Assembly (NCBI GenBank): GCA_002839375.1
Contig: PGXY01000009.1
Span: 252,080 to 316,079, forward strand
Reading direction: 5' to 3'
Origin: Spirochaetae bacterium HGW-Spirochaetae-1
GTDB lineage: Bacteria > Spirochaetota > UBA4802 > UBA5550
Length of the DNA: 64,000 nt
The notes beneath the pieces are model-generated. The model had not been told where the DNA came from. It saw only the letters and a program-made list of their open reading frames with translations, and searched no databases. The translations under genes were made by a program, and so were the position numbers. This document shows, in pieces, positions 42,195-49,119 of this stretch; the first letter of the stretch is position 1, and the number at the start of each line of letters is the position of its first letter.

Positions 42195-42725
42195 TTAACT
42201 GTCCATGGAGAAATTATCATCCCCTCCGCTCCTGTGATTTTTCATCTTCAGGTCACCGCCGCAGCTGGGGCAGCTCTCAATATCTTCCCGGACTGGATAA
42301 TCATTGCCGCAGTAGGGGCATTGTTTGACCCGCAGCCCGGCCTGGAAATCGCTGAATATATAGAGTTCCCTGGCACCCTCGGTCCTTTTCTCCGCCAGGC
42401 CGCTGACCACCATCTGTTCGATCTGGAAACGGACCGTCGCGGAATCGCCCAGATTCGCAATGATCACATCGCTGGTAAGTTCGCCGTTTCCCAACCGTGC
42501 CAGACGAAGTATGGCGGCCCGGATGCCTCCCGGGGTCAGGGCGAGCCCCCGGAGAAAGAGCCGGACCCCGATGAAGAGAAAAGGTATTCCGCCTGCACAT
42601 AGTGCGATGCCGGCAATGATTCTCGACTGGAGTCCGGTCGCTGCAATGATAAAGAGAAGCCCCAGTCCCGTGAGCAAGATACCTGCCAGTGATAGGAATG
42701 CTCCGGTAAAAAGTTGTATGTTCAT
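42195..42725 (-). CDS. small membrane protein with C-terminal zinc ribbon
   Basis: About 176 residues. Two hydrophobic helices lie at the N-terminus (~5-30 and ~36-60), then a basic winged-helix-like helical segment (LTSDVIIANLGDSATVRFQIEQM, broken here only by length), then a zinc ribbon CPYCGNDYP...CPSCGG. The ATG at 42725 shares its A with the stop of the upstream gene (TAATG) and has AAGGAG 8 bases before it, so translation is coupled. It is the last gene of the tail-protein / maturase operon. Function is not recognised. Confidence 0.75.
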   Translation of the reverse strand: MNIQLFTGAFLSLAGILLTGLGLLFIIAATGLQSRIIAGIALCAGGIPFLFIGVRLFLRGLALTPGGIRAAILRLARLGNGELTSDVIIANLGDSATVRFQIEQMVVSGLAEKRTEGARELYIFSDFQAGLRVKQCPYCGNDYPVREDIESCPSCGGDLKMKNHRSGGDDNFSMDS

Positions 42726-43990
42726 TACCATTGCTCCTTGGTGCGTTTGTTCAATTCATCGCCCATGAGCGTGAAGAAGGATTCAATCCTTTTATTGGTA
42801 AAAGCTGTTTCGGTGATCTCCTTGAGCGGTGCTGAAAAATCTGCGGGATGAATATTGATGAAATCAGTTTTTATCCCCTCATTGAGTTTTTTGATCTGCA
42901 GGGCGAACTCACTGGAACCAGGCGGTATGTTGATTTTCAGTTTTGGCAGGGTCGAGTAGGTATCCTGAGATTTTTTTACATTCTTTACGCTGGATCTGAA
43001 CTGTTTGACACCGTCATTCATCCCCTTCATGAGGGCGATGAGGGAAACGGTCTCCTTTATGCCGCTCTGAAGGCTGTTGAAAACATCATTCAGTTCTCCA
43101 GTCTCCATGAGACTTCCCGTTATGTCGGGCCTGTCGCGGCTGAAACGTTCTCCGCAGTAACGGCAGAAGAACCGGTTCTCGGTGTTGTCCGATTTGCACC
43201 GCCGGCATTTTTTCGGTTTTTCCGTATTGTCCTGTGCGATGAGAAAATCTTCATGGCCCCTGAGACTGTTCAGTACGCCGAGAAAGGCCGCCTTGTTTAT
43301 CAGCTCCTCGCGGTTGCTCTCAAGGTATGCCAGTTTTTCCTCGGCGAGGGACAGCTCGGTCTGAAGATCGCTCCAGCGGTCACCGATCCCCTCATTTTCT
43401 TTGTTCATCACGGCATAATCCTTCTGCCATTCCTTGCGCACTGATTCGATTGCTTCAACGAGATCTGTCCGTTTTGCCATGAGTGCATCCTTGTCCCTCT
43501 GGATCTTCCTCATTCTCAGGATGTTTATAATGAAGCCGAAACCGGTGTTGAGTTCATCTATCTGCCTGTTATAGGCCTCGATGGAGGCGGACAGCTCTTC
43601 TATTTTCTTTTTGAGTTTTTCCTCACGCGTATCGAGACTGGTGTTGTCTTTTACCAGTTTCTCAATATGCCGTATCCGTTCACTGTCCTTTTTTTTCAGT
43701 TCTTCTTTCAGGCCATCACGCTTTGTTTTAAGTGCCGCCAGTTCGCCGATAAATATTTTCTCCTGAGGAGGAAACTCTTTTTCAAAAAGCCGGGATACCT
43801 CCGATGGGAAGCCGTTCCTGTCCCTGAAGAAACTTTCCTGAAGCAGGGATATCTCGTCGGTTCGTACGGCCGTTACATTGTTGAAATTGACGTTGAAATA
43901 TTCCTGGATTTTACCGACTTTCCTGCCTATATCGTCGAGAATGGCCGATGTATCGTCGAGAAATGATACCATGTCAGCAAGCGTTCCCAT
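42725..43990 (-). CDS. coiled-coil protein with central zinc ribbon
   Basis: A soluble 421-residue protein. Residues ~75-260 are long coiled coils (heptads rich in Lys/Glu, for example EELKKKDSERIRHIEKLV). At ~285 there is a zinc ribbon CRRCKSDNTENRFFCRYCG. The C-terminal ~120 residues are helical. GGGAGG lies 7 bases before the ATG, and only one base separates it from the stop of the radical SAM gene, so it is translationally coupled. It may hold the tail protein or maturase together; no family is recognised. Confidence 0.75.
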   Translation of the reverse strand: MGTLADMVSFLDDTSAILDDIGRKVGKIQEYFNVNFNNVTAVRTDEISLLQESFFRDRNGFPSEVSRLFEKEFPPQEKIFIGELAALKTKRDGLKEELKKKDSERIRHIEKLVKDNTSLDTREEKLKKKIEELSASIEAYNRQIDELNTGFGFIINILRMRKIQRDKDALMAKRTDLVEAIESVRKEWQKDYAVMNKENEGIGDRWSDLQTELSLAEEKLAYLESNREELINKAAFLGVLNSLRGHEDFLIAQDNTEKPKKCRRCKSDNTENRFFCRYCGERFSRDRPDITGSLMETGELNDVFNSLQSGIKETVSLIALMKGMNDGVKQFRSSVKNVKKSQDTYSTLPKLKINIPPGSSEFALQIKKLNEGIKTDFINIHPADFSAPLKEITETAFTNKRIESFFTLMGDELNKRTKEQW

Positions 43991-43991
43991 A

Positions 43992-45404
43992 TCACTGCCT
44001 CCCGGGATTCAGTATCCCCTGTATGCCTTTTGATTTTACACGCGCCTGCTTTTCCAGGCGCCACAGCAGATTTTTTATTTTTGGGCTGCGGTTTTGTTTC
44101 ATTTCTATCTCGTGGAAGGAACCGGCGTGCTCCCAGTACAGAGGGCATCCCCCACCGCAGAGCTTTTCCAGATCGCATCCACGGCATGCCGGTGGGACAT
44201 AGCGTTTTTCCCGCCAGTACAGGGCCTGGTCTGAGTTCCATATCTTTTGAAAATTCTGTGTCAGAAGGTTTCCTATACCGCGGTCGAAGCTGGAACAGGG
44301 GAGGACTTCTCCGGCGGGATTTACGGAAAGAAGACCAGAGACACAGGCACAGGATTTTGATCCCAGGCCGTGGTCAAGGGGATTGAAGACGCAGTAGGGA
44401 GTGGGCGAGTACCACACAAAACGGATTCCCAGGATCTCGCAGTAATCGAGAAGAGGTTTCAGGATATTTTCAATGCCGGAGTAACCGATTCCCGTGTTGT
44501 CGTTGTCGCGGGCGATTCCCGTGGCTATGATCATGTTCATGGACAGATAATCGGCGTTGAATTCCTCACGGACGAAGCGGGCCAGGGGCATGAGGTGGCT
44601 GCTGTTTTTACGGCAGATAGTGGTATTGGTATGGGTGTGGATGCCCGACGATTTCAGATTTATGATGCCCTGCACGCAGTCCCTGAAGGCATTGCTGTTT
44701 CCCGTGATTTCATTATGCAGTGATTCGTCGTGGGATTCCAGGCTGACCTGTGCGGACTTGAGACCGGCCCGGGCAAGTTCTCCGACGAAATACATGTCGG
44801 CGCATCGGATGCCGTTGGTGATGAGATTCGTTCTCATGCCCAGGCTGTGAGCGTAGTGTACCAGCTCCGGAAGATCGTCACGCAGGGTCGGTTCTCCGCC
44901 GGTAAAAGAGATGGTTGGGACATGAGCATCGCGGTGAATTATTTTGATCACGGTGCGAACTTCTTCCGTGGTCATTTCAGCCATCTCGTTTCCCCGGTAG
45001 GGACTCGATGCATAACAGAAGTCGCACCGGTTCTGGCACCGGTAGGTCAGGGCTATTTCGGACAGCACGGGAAAGAGTATGGTCTGCGGGTTAAAGGGGA
45101 TCTCCTCCACCATGGATAGTCCACCATAGTTGTCCTGCATGATGCCCCTGATATTTTGCACCAGGGTGATGATATCGGATAGCAGTATATCAGCGGACTT
45201 TTCATATTTTTCCGACAGGATGGTGACTGTTTCATTGACTGTCCTGTTTTTCCCATATAGTAAATCGAGCATTTCATAGGCCGTATCATTGACATGCTGT
45301 ATTTTGTTTGGGCGGATGATGAGAAGACGGTCTTCACGGCGCAGATACAGAACGTCCCGTGTGGACCGGATAAAATCATCTATGGAGTCAATGCGTTCTT
45401 TCAC
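43992..45404 (-). CDS. PqqD/radical SAM/SPASM peptide-modifying enzyme
   Basis: About 470 residues from a GTG at 45404 with GAGG 6 bases upstream, overlapping the preceding stop. ATG codons further upstream, up to 45521, fall inside the repeat tail of the previous gene and lack ribosome sites. Residues ~10-85 resemble a PqqD-like substrate-binding (RRE) domain (LIIRPNKIQHVNDTAYEML). The radical SAM core has C123xxxC127xxC130 in YRCQNRCDFC, plus TGGEPTLRD. The C-terminal SPASM domain binds auxiliary clusters (CACVSG, LPCSSFD, ACRGCDLEKLCGGGC). This architecture is that of peptide maturases that install thioether or C-C links. Confidence 0.93.
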   Translation of the reverse strand: MKERIDSIDDFIRSTRDVLYLRREDRLLIIRPNKIQHVNDTAYEMLDLLYGKNRTVNETVTILSEKYEKSADILLSDIITLVQNIRGIMQDNYGGLSMVEEIPFNPQTILFPVLSEIALTYRCQNRCDFCYASSPYRGNEMAEMTTEEVRTVIKIIHRDAHVPTISFTGGEPTLRDDLPELVHYAHSLGMRTNLITNGIRCADMYFVGELARAGLKSAQVSLESHDESLHNEITGNSNAFRDCVQGIINLKSSGIHTHTNTTICRKNSSHLMPLARFVREEFNADYLSMNMIIATGIARDNDNTGIGYSGIENILKPLLDYCEILGIRFVWYSPTPYCVFNPLDHGLGSKSCACVSGLLSVNPAGEVLPCSSFDRGIGNLLTQNFQKIWNSDQALYWREKRYVPPACRGCDLEKLCGGGCPLYWEHAGSFHEIEMKQNRSPKIKNLLWRLEKQARVKSKGIQGILNPGRQ

Positions 45405-45412
45405 AACGGGCC

Positions 45413-48178
45413 TCAGAAGCTCGACACGCATGCCGAGTGGCATGCCGAGTGGCAGGCTGAATGAACGCACGCCGAGTGGCATGCCGAGTGGCAGGCTGAA
45501 TGAACACATGCCGAGTGGCATGCCGAATGACAGGCCGAGTGGCAGGCATCATAGCTGAAGGACGAGATATTTGCCGTAAAGGCCGCTGCCTGTTCCTGCA
45601 CGGTTTTCAGGTCGGGAGTTGAAAAGAGGTTTTCTATTTTTTCAACGATTTTCCCTGAAACGCCTTCTACCTGTTCAACGATGCCGCCGGCAAAGTCACG
45701 GATGCCGTCTGAGTATGGTTCGGCCTGCTTTGATATTTTTTCAAAGAAATATCCCGCAGCTCCCTTGTCAGTATCAGAATGGATTTTCTCAAGGAAGGAA
45801 CGTGCCTGAGTTTCAAATCGGTCGTTAAGGAGAAGCCAAGAATGGTTCTCTTCGAAATAGCGCTTCTGGGAATCGTAGTCCTTCATGGAGGAAAAATCGT
45901 GCCAGTGCCGATCCACTTTACCAATGTAGCTTTCGGCTGTTTTGCCGATGTCGGCCTTCCAGACCTTTCCCTGGAGGGAACGAGACACTGATTTCAGGAT
46001 GAGGGGGATCTTGTTTTTCCCCAGGGTACCGTCTTCGGCTATGGATTCCAGGAAGAGTTTTTCATAGGTTTCAAGGCCTTCCATTTCCCTGTCCAGTATG
46101 GTCACCTGGAGGGGATTGCGGTTAATGATATCAATGACTTTTTTACCGAAAAGAGACATGACTATGAGGTTGATGGCCCTGGACGGTTTATTAAGAAAAA
46201 CTGCTGTTTCAACGGCGTTCAGGTCTCCCACGGTCTCATTGGTCCTGAAGGTTTCGATCTGAATTTCCGGTGCAATGTATTCCGGTTTTTTTTCCAGGAG
46301 TTTTTTTACGGCGGGGTGAAAGGATGCGAGCCTGAGCAGCAGGGCAAGGACCGCAGATATCAGATAGTAGGTTATCCTGAAAGGAACCAGGACTGAATTA
46401 AAGCTGAAGATATATCCCGAATTCAAGCTGAATTTCTTTTTACCTCCCGGGAAGAAAATCTTATTGAAGAGATCCAGCTTGGCAAAGGCATCGATGACGG
46501 TTATCACGATACCGGCTGATATTATTTCAGATCCCAGGAATATAAAATTGAACAGGTACATTATCAGAATGTAGAAAATAAGGCTGCCGAGAAGATCGGT
46601 TATATACCCTGTATCAACTCCTGAAAGTTTCATCCCGAGAGTGTCGTTGGCGATGGTTCGTACTTTGAACCAGGGAGAGGCAATGATTTTGTCAGGGCTT
46701 ATTTTAAGGGTCATGGGAAATGCCGGGATATCATTGCGATTCCACCTGGAAGACTGGGCCATGACGGTGATATAGGGATAATATCTTTTGATGTTATTTT
46801 TATCCATGAAAAAATCTCCGTCCTGCCGGTATCTCCTTATGAAGGAAAGGTTTTCGAACATGCCGGCGCCGGCCTCGGGAATGATGAAAGGGAGTTTTTC
46901 ATCATTGAGTTTTATTTCAACGAGCTCGTTCTGAAAAGCTCCCTGGTAAGGCATAACGAAGCGCATGCGTAGAAACGGGAAGGATTCCGGGAAGGTGACG
47001 CCGTACCAGGAATACAGGGCGTTGAAATATTCATTAAAGAGTTCGGCATCGGGAGAAAGTCTTATCATGCGAGATATGGCGAGACGGATTTTAATTATAT
47101 CTCCTCGTGCCGTCTTGTTGCCAAGGATAATGTCATAGGCGAATTCATCGGCGGTATTATCGGGATTAACGCTCTTCCTGAGTTTCGCCGGTACCGTGTT
47201 CCCGTTAACCTGGACCAGGGTCTTCTCGATCATGCTGTAGAAGGCATCCCTTGGCATCCGGATTATTTTTCTCAAAATGTTTCTCTTCCCCTCCTCGGTA
47301 ACGAGGAGGTCGAAGGTTCCGGTTTCAGCCATAACAATACTGTCATCGGACTTATTCTCCAGCATGATGTCGATGAGAACATTGCGTATACGGTAGACCC
47401 CCTCTTCTGTAAGGTCTGCGGCGGTCAGTTCCTCGAGAGTGTAGTCGCCTCCCTCGGCTCCGGCATCGACATATTTATAGGGCAGGTAAAATTTTACTTC
47501 GTCTTTCTCGTTGGCTGTAAGAGAACTTTTTTCAGTATGAAGGGAAAGATAGTTTTTCCCCTTCCAGGGTGTGGGAAAAAAAATCCAGCGGTCATGGCGT
47601 TTTATTGAATCGGGATCCGTCACTACGCCGGAACGATTCACCAGATCGTCCCTGATCATTTCGGCTTTTTTATAAGCGGCGGGAATTTCCACGGGAAGCA
47701 CTACCTGGATTGTCTGTTTTTTTATCGGAAGGTTCCACTGAACAGGAGGCCACCAGAAGGCGCCGTAGGTCCGATCATTGAAGGTTGTCTTCTCGAAGAC
47801 CGGACGATCTACACGGTATCGCATGTTTATGGTGTACGTTTTTCCCGGCTCCGTTTGTATATTGAAGACAGCAGAATAGAATTGGTTTCCCTTGTATTCC
47901 ATGGTCACCTGAAATTTTCTGTTGCCCGCGGTGCCCCAGGCTTCGATGAACTGCATGGGCTCAATGAACTGCCCGATGGTCCTGATGCGGTCCCGTCCTT
48001 CATGTTCCGTGAAGGTCAGGGTATAGAGAATTTCGCACTTGCCGTCTTTTATTATAGTAATATGATAACGCGTTTCTTCCAGGGTAACCGGCGCAGCCGT
48101 GATGACTGTGCTGATGAAGAGTAATATGAGAATGAAGGGAAGAATCAACGGTAAGAGACGATTTCCTTTTTTATTCAT
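45413..48178 (-). CDS. DUF2207-like membrane protein with HSAC repeat tail (candidate maturase substrate)
   Basis: 921 residues with GAGGA 8 bases before the ATG. Signal peptide 1-28; a large beta-rich extracytoplasmic domain ~30-520 (YHITIIKDGKCEILYTLTF); hydrophobic helices ~540-560, ~565-590 and ~620-640; a cytoplasmic part with DLNAVETAVFLNKPSRAINL, like the conserved C-terminal domain of DUF2207-type proteins; then an amphipathic helical segment. The last 44 residues (878-921) are a nested repeat of HSAC units, three blocks ending in V, with 10 Cys and 9 His, then SSF. Relatives usually have Gly-rich tails. The radical SAM gene follows directly, so the tail is a likely substrate. Confidence 0.88.
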   Translation of the reverse strand: MNKKGNRLLPLILPFILILLFISTVITAAPVTLEETRYHITIIKDGKCEILYTLTFTEHEGRDRIRTIGQFIEPMQFIEAWGTAGNRKFQVTMEYKGNQFYSAVFNIQTEPGKTYTINMRYRVDRPVFEKTTFNDRTYGAFWWPPVQWNLPIKKQTIQVVLPVEIPAAYKKAEMIRDDLVNRSGVVTDPDSIKRHDRWIFFPTPWKGKNYLSLHTEKSSLTANEKDEVKFYLPYKYVDAGAEGGDYTLEELTAADLTEEGVYRIRNVLIDIMLENKSDDSIVMAETGTFDLLVTEEGKRNILRKIIRMPRDAFYSMIEKTLVQVNGNTVPAKLRKSVNPDNTADEFAYDIILGNKTARGDIIKIRLAISRMIRLSPDAELFNEYFNALYSWYGVTFPESFPFLRMRFVMPYQGAFQNELVEIKLNDEKLPFIIPEAGAGMFENLSFIRRYRQDGDFFMDKNNIKRYYPYITVMAQSSRWNRNDIPAFPMTLKISPDKIIASPWFKVRTIANDTLGMKLSGVDTGYITDLLGSLIFYILIMYLFNFIFLGSEIISAGIVITVIDAFAKLDLFNKIFFPGGKKKFSLNSGYIFSFNSVLVPFRITYYLISAVLALLLRLASFHPAVKKLLEKKPEYIAPEIQIETFRTNETVGDLNAVETAVFLNKPSRAINLIVMSLFGKKVIDIINRNPLQVTILDREMEGLETYEKLFLESIAEDGTLGKNKIPLILKSVSRSLQGKVWKADIGKTAESYIGKVDRHWHDFSSMKDYDSQKRYFEENHSWLLLNDRFETQARSFLEKIHSDTDKGAAGYFFEKISKQAEPYSDGIRDFAGGIVEQVEGVSGKIVEKIENLFSTPDLKTVQEQAAAFTANISSFSYDACHSACHSACHSACVHSACHSACHSACVHSACHSACHSACVSSF
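45426..45542 (-). repeat. 39-bp tandem repeat (three copies) coding the HSAC tail
   Basis: Three head-to-tail 39-base units (45426-45464, 45465-45503, 45504-45542). Each holds three 12-base HSAC-coding subunits plus one Val codon. Copies 1 and 2 differ by one base; copy 3 is more diverged. The period of 39 keeps the reading frame. Confidence 0.95.
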
Positions 48179-48340: not shown

Positions 48341-48393
48341 TATTGCATAGTATAGCGGTAATGTGCGAAATATCATCTATCAGGAGATGTGTC

Positions 48394-49119
48394 ATGAAAA
48401 AAATTGCCCTTATTTTATTAGCCCTCATTGTTGTCACTGCGGGGTGCAAGAAATCTGTTGAGTCTGAAAAAAAGGCCTGGGAAAGCAATCTTAAAAAAAT
48501 TGATTCGCTGGCCATGGAATTCCCTTCCTATGCGACAATTCTGAAGGATCAGGTTAAAAAAGCCGAACCCGTGATGAAGGCTGCCGAGATCCTCACCGAT
48601 GAAGAAGCAAAGATCAAGAAGATTAGTGAAGCCAACGGTATAATTAATGCCCTCTTTGTCAGAAACCTGGATAACCTGAGGAGCCTGAAACAGTCCATTC
48701 GCAGCAAGATCATAGAAGTTCGGGGACTGCGCCTTGAGTATAGCGAGCGATACAGCGCAGACAGGGCCATTGCCGATGCAGAGACGACAATTCAGAAGGC
48801 TGAGGAGCGTCTTAAGACCGCTGTCAATAATGCAGCCGAAGGTGAAGCCCTCAGCGACCTGGTGACCCGTGACCTGAAATATGCCGTGAACAGCCTGGAA
48901 AGCGTTATAAAAATGGTGAGGGACCGGGAGCGTGAGGCCCAGAGAAAGATCGATGAGCAGAAAAAGATTGAGGATCAGGGCAAGACATCAAATAATATTA
49001 ATTCCGGTGGAACCACGGGGAACACGATACCGCAACCTGCCGATATCAAGTGCTCCTACTGCGGAACGATAAACCCGGCGGGGAGTAAGAATTGTAAGGG
49101 ATGCGGCGCCGCATTTTAG
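48394..49119 (+). CDS. coiled-coil lipoprotein with C-terminal zinc ribbon
   Basis: 241 residues from the ATG at 48394 (AGGAG 7 bases upstream). The signal peptide ends in lipobox VVTAGCKK, so the N-terminus is lipid-anchored. Residues ~25-195 are helical coiled coil (EEAKIKKISEANGIINALF). A Gly/Asn/Thr linker leads to a rubredoxin-like zinc ribbon CSYCGTINPAGSKNCKGCG at the very end. An extracytoplasmic zinc ribbon is unusual. It is divergent from the HSAC-tail gene and shares the zinc-ribbon theme with the two genes at the far end of that operon. No family is recognised. Confidence 0.78.
   Translation: MKKIALILLALIVVTAGCKKSVESEKKAWESNLKKIDSLAMEFPSYATILKDQVKKAEPVMKAAEILTDEEAKIKKISEANGIINALFVRNLDNLRSLKQSIRSKIIEVRGLRLEYSERYSADRAIADAETTIQKAEERLKTAVNNAAEGEALSDLVTRDLKYAVNSLESVIKMVRDREREAQRKIDEQKKIEDQGKTSNNINSGGTTGNTIPQPADIKCSYCGTINPAGSKNCKGCGAAF

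Follow-up and report, generated by a model that had tools for sequence, protein, structure and literature searches.

A Cys/His-repeat tail on a membrane protein as the probable target of a paired radical SAM/SPASM enzyme in bacteria and Asgard archaea

Sequence comparison in bacteria and archaea makes it very probable that the radical SAM enzyme encoded beside a large membrane protein modifies the Cys-rich C-terminal tail of that protein. An earlier note on this DNA had proposed that the tail of the membrane protein, and no free peptide, is the substrate, and this proposal is now supported by the co-occurrence of the two genes and by the way in which the type of tail tracks the enzyme clade. 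The genes belong to an operon in the window, which is the whole stretch of 64,000 nucleotides that was analysed, with the following features.

45413 to 48178, minus strand: membrane protein of 921 amino acids, ending in a Cys/His tail with ten Cys and nine His
Residues 8-26 of the membrane protein: signal-like segment
N-terminal to the cytosolic domain of the membrane protein: DUF2207-like extracytoplasmic part
Residues 529-547, 552-570 and 596-614 of the membrane protein: predicted transmembrane segments
Residues 647-713 of the membrane protein: cytosolic domain with weak similarity to TIGR04222
45416 to 45538, minus strand: tail of three (HSAC)3-V modules with nine HSAC units and ten Cys, the proposed substrate
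43992 to 45431, minus strand: PqqD/radical SAM/SPASM enzyme, 479 amino acids from the likely ATG, overlapping the tail gene by 19 bases
45150 to 45311, minus strand: PqqD-like (RRE) domain of the enzyme (Pfam PF05402, 27.1 bits, cut-off 23.4)
44604 to 45050, minus strand: radical SAM core of the enzyme with CxxxCxxC (PF04055, 82.4 bits)
44172 to 44351, minus strand: SPASM domain of the enzyme (PF13186, 40.0 bits), with seven invariant Cys in and just around it
42725 to 43990, minus strand: third operon gene, encoding a coiled-coil protein that contains a Cys4 zinc-ribbon-like motif; 15 related loci have a homologue, 12 of them at +2
42195 to 42731, minus strand: fourth operon gene, encoding a small membrane protein with a zinc ribbon at its C-terminus; homologue at +3 in seven related loci

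The earlier note had suggested that co-occurrence of tail and enzyme beyond chance would support their pairing, and in three phyla the two were indeed found together almost without exception. With the enzyme family defined at E<=1e-80 and the tail scored as a CHSACHSAC DNA pattern, 21 of the 393 genomes in the phylum of the window carry the enzyme and the same 21 carry the pattern, while the remaining 372 have neither; every one of these carriers has a single enzyme with the tail gene adjacent. Among 281 Chloroflexota genomes, clade A of the enzyme, which accompanies HSAC tails, occurs in three, the pattern in the same three and neither in 278. The 148 Asgard archaeal genomes include 24 with clade A and 26 with the pattern, 23 of which are common to both. 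The Fisher probabilities, in which related genomes are treated as independent, are 3e-35 for the phylum of the window, 3e-7 for Chloroflexota and 1e-22 for Asgard archaea. The mismatches are few: one Asgard genome has only the enzyme, and its tail gene is disrupted, while tails without the enzyme, which the earlier note had named as evidence against the pairing, were found in only three of the 148 Asgard genomes. One of these three is assembled almost as a single contig, so that its lack of the enzyme seems genuine; in its tail, one repeat unit has changed to HAAC. Furthermore, in 59 relatives the enzyme is present in the same genomes as a complete tail protein, and one further relative genome holds an N-terminal fragment of the tail protein at a contig end.

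The pairing was also followed from the side of the tail. Exact eight-residue patterns taken from one divergent protein were too strict, giving no match in GTDB genomes with the enzyme. A degenerate CHSACHSAC pattern yielded at least 116 stretches, of which at least 101, from many phyla, are genuine tails at the C-terminus of proteins homologous to that of the window. Among the matches listed, the enzyme lies in the same locus for 89 of 101 tails, being directly downstream on the same strand in 85 cases, divergent in three Asgard cases and upstream in one archaeal case. As for the other 12 tails among these matches, six loci end too soon to tell and six genomes have the enzyme elsewhere, and it scores 428-629 bits; the next radical SAM protein, in the genomes for which one was listed, reaches 103-154 bits. 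The repeat units among the matches listed are mostly HSA (669) and HDA (75), with HNA, HGA, HAA and HQA rarer. One Myxococcales genome has two HSAC tail proteins (L018 and L025), and a single clade-A enzyme was found in it. Cultured bacteria are also among the carriers, for example Desulfobulbus alkaliphilus DSM 24258 (L051).

The strongest sequence evidence for the tail as substrate is its covariation with the enzyme clade, since an enzyme-substrate relation predicts such covariation and mere co-inheritance does not require it. Asgard archaea and Chloroflexota also have a second enzyme group (clade B), with lower scores against the clade-A model. The gene upstream of these enzymes encodes a homologue of the membrane protein; this homologue usually contains a Gly-rich stretch and ends in CA repeats such as CACACACAGCACACAGGGR. 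Tails of this CACACAGGGR type stand beside clade B in 24 of the 25 loci examined (7 of 8 in Asgard archaea and 17 of 17 in Chloroflexota); no HSAC tail was seen in any of the 25, and one locus (L180) showed no tail. The remark in the earlier note that the Gly-rich tail of relatives is replaced in the window protein agrees with these Gly-rich stretches and CA repeats in the partners of the sister clade. In addition, one genome (G744) contains both an HSAC pair and a CA pair, each matched to its own clade (L204 and L221). In a quick tree of 56 enzymes, the CA enzymes lie on a long branch in a single, fully supported group of ten, together with two distant myxococcal enzymes and one enzyme without a visible tail. 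Ala-Cys pairs are common to both kinds of tail. Five CA-tail loci (L205, L207, L210, L219 and L220) encode a further radical SAM protein, more distantly related (100-118 bits), next to the first on its downstream side. Two myxococcal enzymes (L191 and L192) score 240-269 bits, and no recognisable Cys tail was seen beside them in the stretch covered.

The enzyme was correctly described earlier as having PqqD-like, radical SAM and SPASM parts, all of which are borne out by the Pfam scores given above. The GTG start proposed for it was not upheld. Homologues align from near the end of the tail, so the most likely start is the ATG at 45431, 19 bases inside the tail gene; the longest open reading frame begins at 45521, inside the tail, and would read the repeat out of frame. 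All three Cys of CxxxCxxC are invariant among 44 enzyme sequences. In the SPASM motif C-x9-15-G-x4-C ... C-x2-C-x5-C-x3-C ... C, every Cys except the last is invariant in the same 44 sequences, and the Gly is kept in 90% or more; as the terminal Cys of the classical motif is not invariant, the cluster ligation is uncertain. The model of the enzyme has a pLDDT of 91.8, with the PqqD/RRE region in beta-beta-beta-alpha-alpha-alpha order, and its nearest folds are SkfB, SuiB, CteB and anSME.

The tail with its ten Cys and nine His, as first noted, is present in the translated 921-residue reading frame. The label of DUF2207-like that had been given to this protein stands as a weak match: the score for DUF2207 (PF09972) lies under the gathering score (20.4 against 24.4 bits), and 7 of 33 relatives reach E<=0.001. 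Similarity to TIGR04222 (near_uncomplex) is also weak in the window protein (13.6 against a cut-off of 43), with 11 of 33 relatives matching at E<=0.1 (best 4e-8). Eight of the 33 match TIGR04117 (best E 0.009), probably through composition, and this is no clear family match. A fold search with the membrane protein returned low TM-scores only, to beta-sandwich domains, and the structure model of the tail is of low confidence. Membrane proteins of this type have a signal-like segment and one to three transmembrane segments. The members with a single transmembrane segment have more Lys and Arg on the tail side than on the other (3.7 and 2.3 per 15 residues, respectively; p=0.006), a topology that suggests a cytosolic tail, on the side of the membrane where the enzyme is. 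A gene divergent from the operon, at 48343-49119 on the plus strand of the window, codes for a lipoprotein-like protein that has a zinc ribbon at its C-terminus.

We consider it likely that these genes form a dedicated protein-modification system, in which a SPASM enzyme, bound through its RRE, acts in the cytosol on the Cys of the still attached tail. The fused PqqD/RRE domain would be the expected docking site for the membrane-protein partner, and the enzyme would act from the cytosolic side on the repeated Cys of the C-terminal tail. The tail would then remain on a membrane-anchored protein whose DUF2207-like domain is predicted to lie outside the cell. Known relatives of the enzyme make thioether or carbon-carbon links or epimerize residues. 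By analogy with this enzyme family, Cys thioether cross-links repeated along the tail would be the most likely modification, although for this specific chemistry we put the chances slightly below even. More speculatively, the modified tail may serve as a fixed metal-, redox- or partner-binding element, as opposed to a released natural product.

Alternatively, the system could be a conventional RiPP pathway, in which the body would serve as an outsized leader and the tail, as the core peptide, would be cleaved from it to become a free natural product or signal. In favour of this view, RiPP precursors are the usual substrates of RRE-fused SPASM enzymes, and the tail stands at the C-terminus, like a core peptide. 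However, a RiPP precursor is a short peptide and the partner here is a membrane protein of 500-920 residues, the body of which has signal and transmembrane segments; the tail is nearly invariant across phyla, unlike most antimicrobial core peptides; and no protease or exporter family recurs beside the pair among the clustered neighbours of related loci. This alternative is unlikely. What does recur is of another kind. In the window, the third and fourth genes continue the operon after the enzyme gene without a gap, the fourth with a match to Zn_ribbon_3 under the cut-off. A conserved membrane protein family of ∼330 residues occupies +2 in 49 related loci (for example L018:2156-3136 and L069:3219-4202), following the enzyme in many systems whose tails end in VSGG-type residues. 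Neither this family nor the coiled-coil and zinc-ribbon proteins gave a Pfam match above the cut-off.

It is less probable still, and indeed rather improbable, that the tail is an unmodified metal-binding element and that the target of the enzyme is another component acting together with the tail. The zinc-ribbon proteins in the window-type operon would be in keeping with such a role, as would the Cys spacing, which is four in 824 of 932 cases in the tails among the matches listed, with His beside each Cys; an i, i+4 spacing suits a helix. However, metal binding by an unmodified tail would account neither for the change of tail type with enzyme clade nor for the tail almost never occurring without the enzyme.

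The tail behaves as a conserved coding sequence. The differences between the nine HSAC units of the window are confined to third codon positions, and pairwise comparison of five orthologous tails of equal length gave 243 synonymous and 18 non-synonymous codon differences, third positions accounting for 257 of the 291 base changes; the overwhelmingly synonymous differences indicate that the repeat is coding. In five other genomes of the same family, the bodies of the orthologues are ∼40-63% identical in the matched parts and the tails are nearly the same. Among 33 diverse relatives the median identity is ∼22% for the body and ∼83% for the tail, and in each of the 528 pairs it is the tail that has the higher identity. 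A minisatellite expanded over the gene boundary and devoid of protein function, which the 39-base period of the repeat DNA and its tandem array overlapping two reading frames might suggest, is refuted by its occurrence at this locus only in a genome of 5.2 Mb, by the 243:18 ratio in the tail frame and by the conservation of the protein tail across bacteria and archaea. A dispersed or selfish repeat was likewise ruled out, by the single occurrence and the synonymous variation.

Several known systems resemble this one in part. Nearest to it among published proposals is one in which certain TIGR04222 membrane proteins, with Cys in their C-terminal regions, are substrates of MNIO enzymes (PMC12452194). 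There too, a membrane protein with a distantly similar domain has a low-complexity Cys tail and an adjacent oxidative iron enzyme; however, that system has an MNIO and a tail predicted to be periplasmic, whereas here a radical SAM/SPASM enzyme with its own RRE is paired with a tail predicted to be cytosolic. SkfB, SuiB, CteB and their relatives share the layout and fold of RRE, radical SAM and SPASM domains, and several known RRE-fused SPASM maturases act on Cys-rich targets. Their substrates are short peptides, in contrast to a membrane protein of 500-920 residues, and the window-type enzyme is far in sequence from every curated family. The CXXX-repeat (TIGR04117) and His-Xaa-Ser (HxsA/HxsC) systems also combine a radical SAM enzyme with a repeat target, with Cys every four residues in the former and His/Ser repeats in the latter, but the TIGR04117 match here is weak and the enzyme scores 85.3 bits against the HxsC (TIGR03977) cut-off of 267.9. 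Anaerobic sulfatase-maturating enzymes (anSME), a close fold match, and QhpD are SPASM radical SAM enzymes that act on proteins and not on free peptides; they modify enzyme active sites or a small subunit, and not the repeat tail of a membrane protein. As for DUF2207 itself, its link to 5-thiohistidine was concluded not to be functional (PMC12631010), and a DUF2207 protein of Streptococcus mutans affects stress tolerance and biofilm formation (PMC10457818).

In the literature, no paper was found that describes this pair of tail and enzyme, DUF2207 or a CXXX repeat with radical SAM, or TIGR04117/TIGR04119. Among curated databases, no family was found for the enzymes of either clade or for the CA-tail proteins scanned, and no NCBIfam model came near its cut-off for either clade, so many genomes carry the pair unrecognised. 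It is possible, though we hold this only tentatively, that a widespread system of cell physiology, as opposed to a natural-product pathway, spans bacteria and archaea; its enzymes would write a regular covalent pattern on the cytosolic tail of a receptor-like membrane protein, in at least two dialects, HSAC and CA, with a separate enzyme clade for each, and the modified tail would be a fixed element that senses metal or redox state. The matched dialects make the enzyme-substrate claim directly testable by a tail swap. If the claim is true, radical SAM peptide chemistry would extend beyond released peptides to permanent parts of membrane proteins, both in bacteria and in Asgard archaea.
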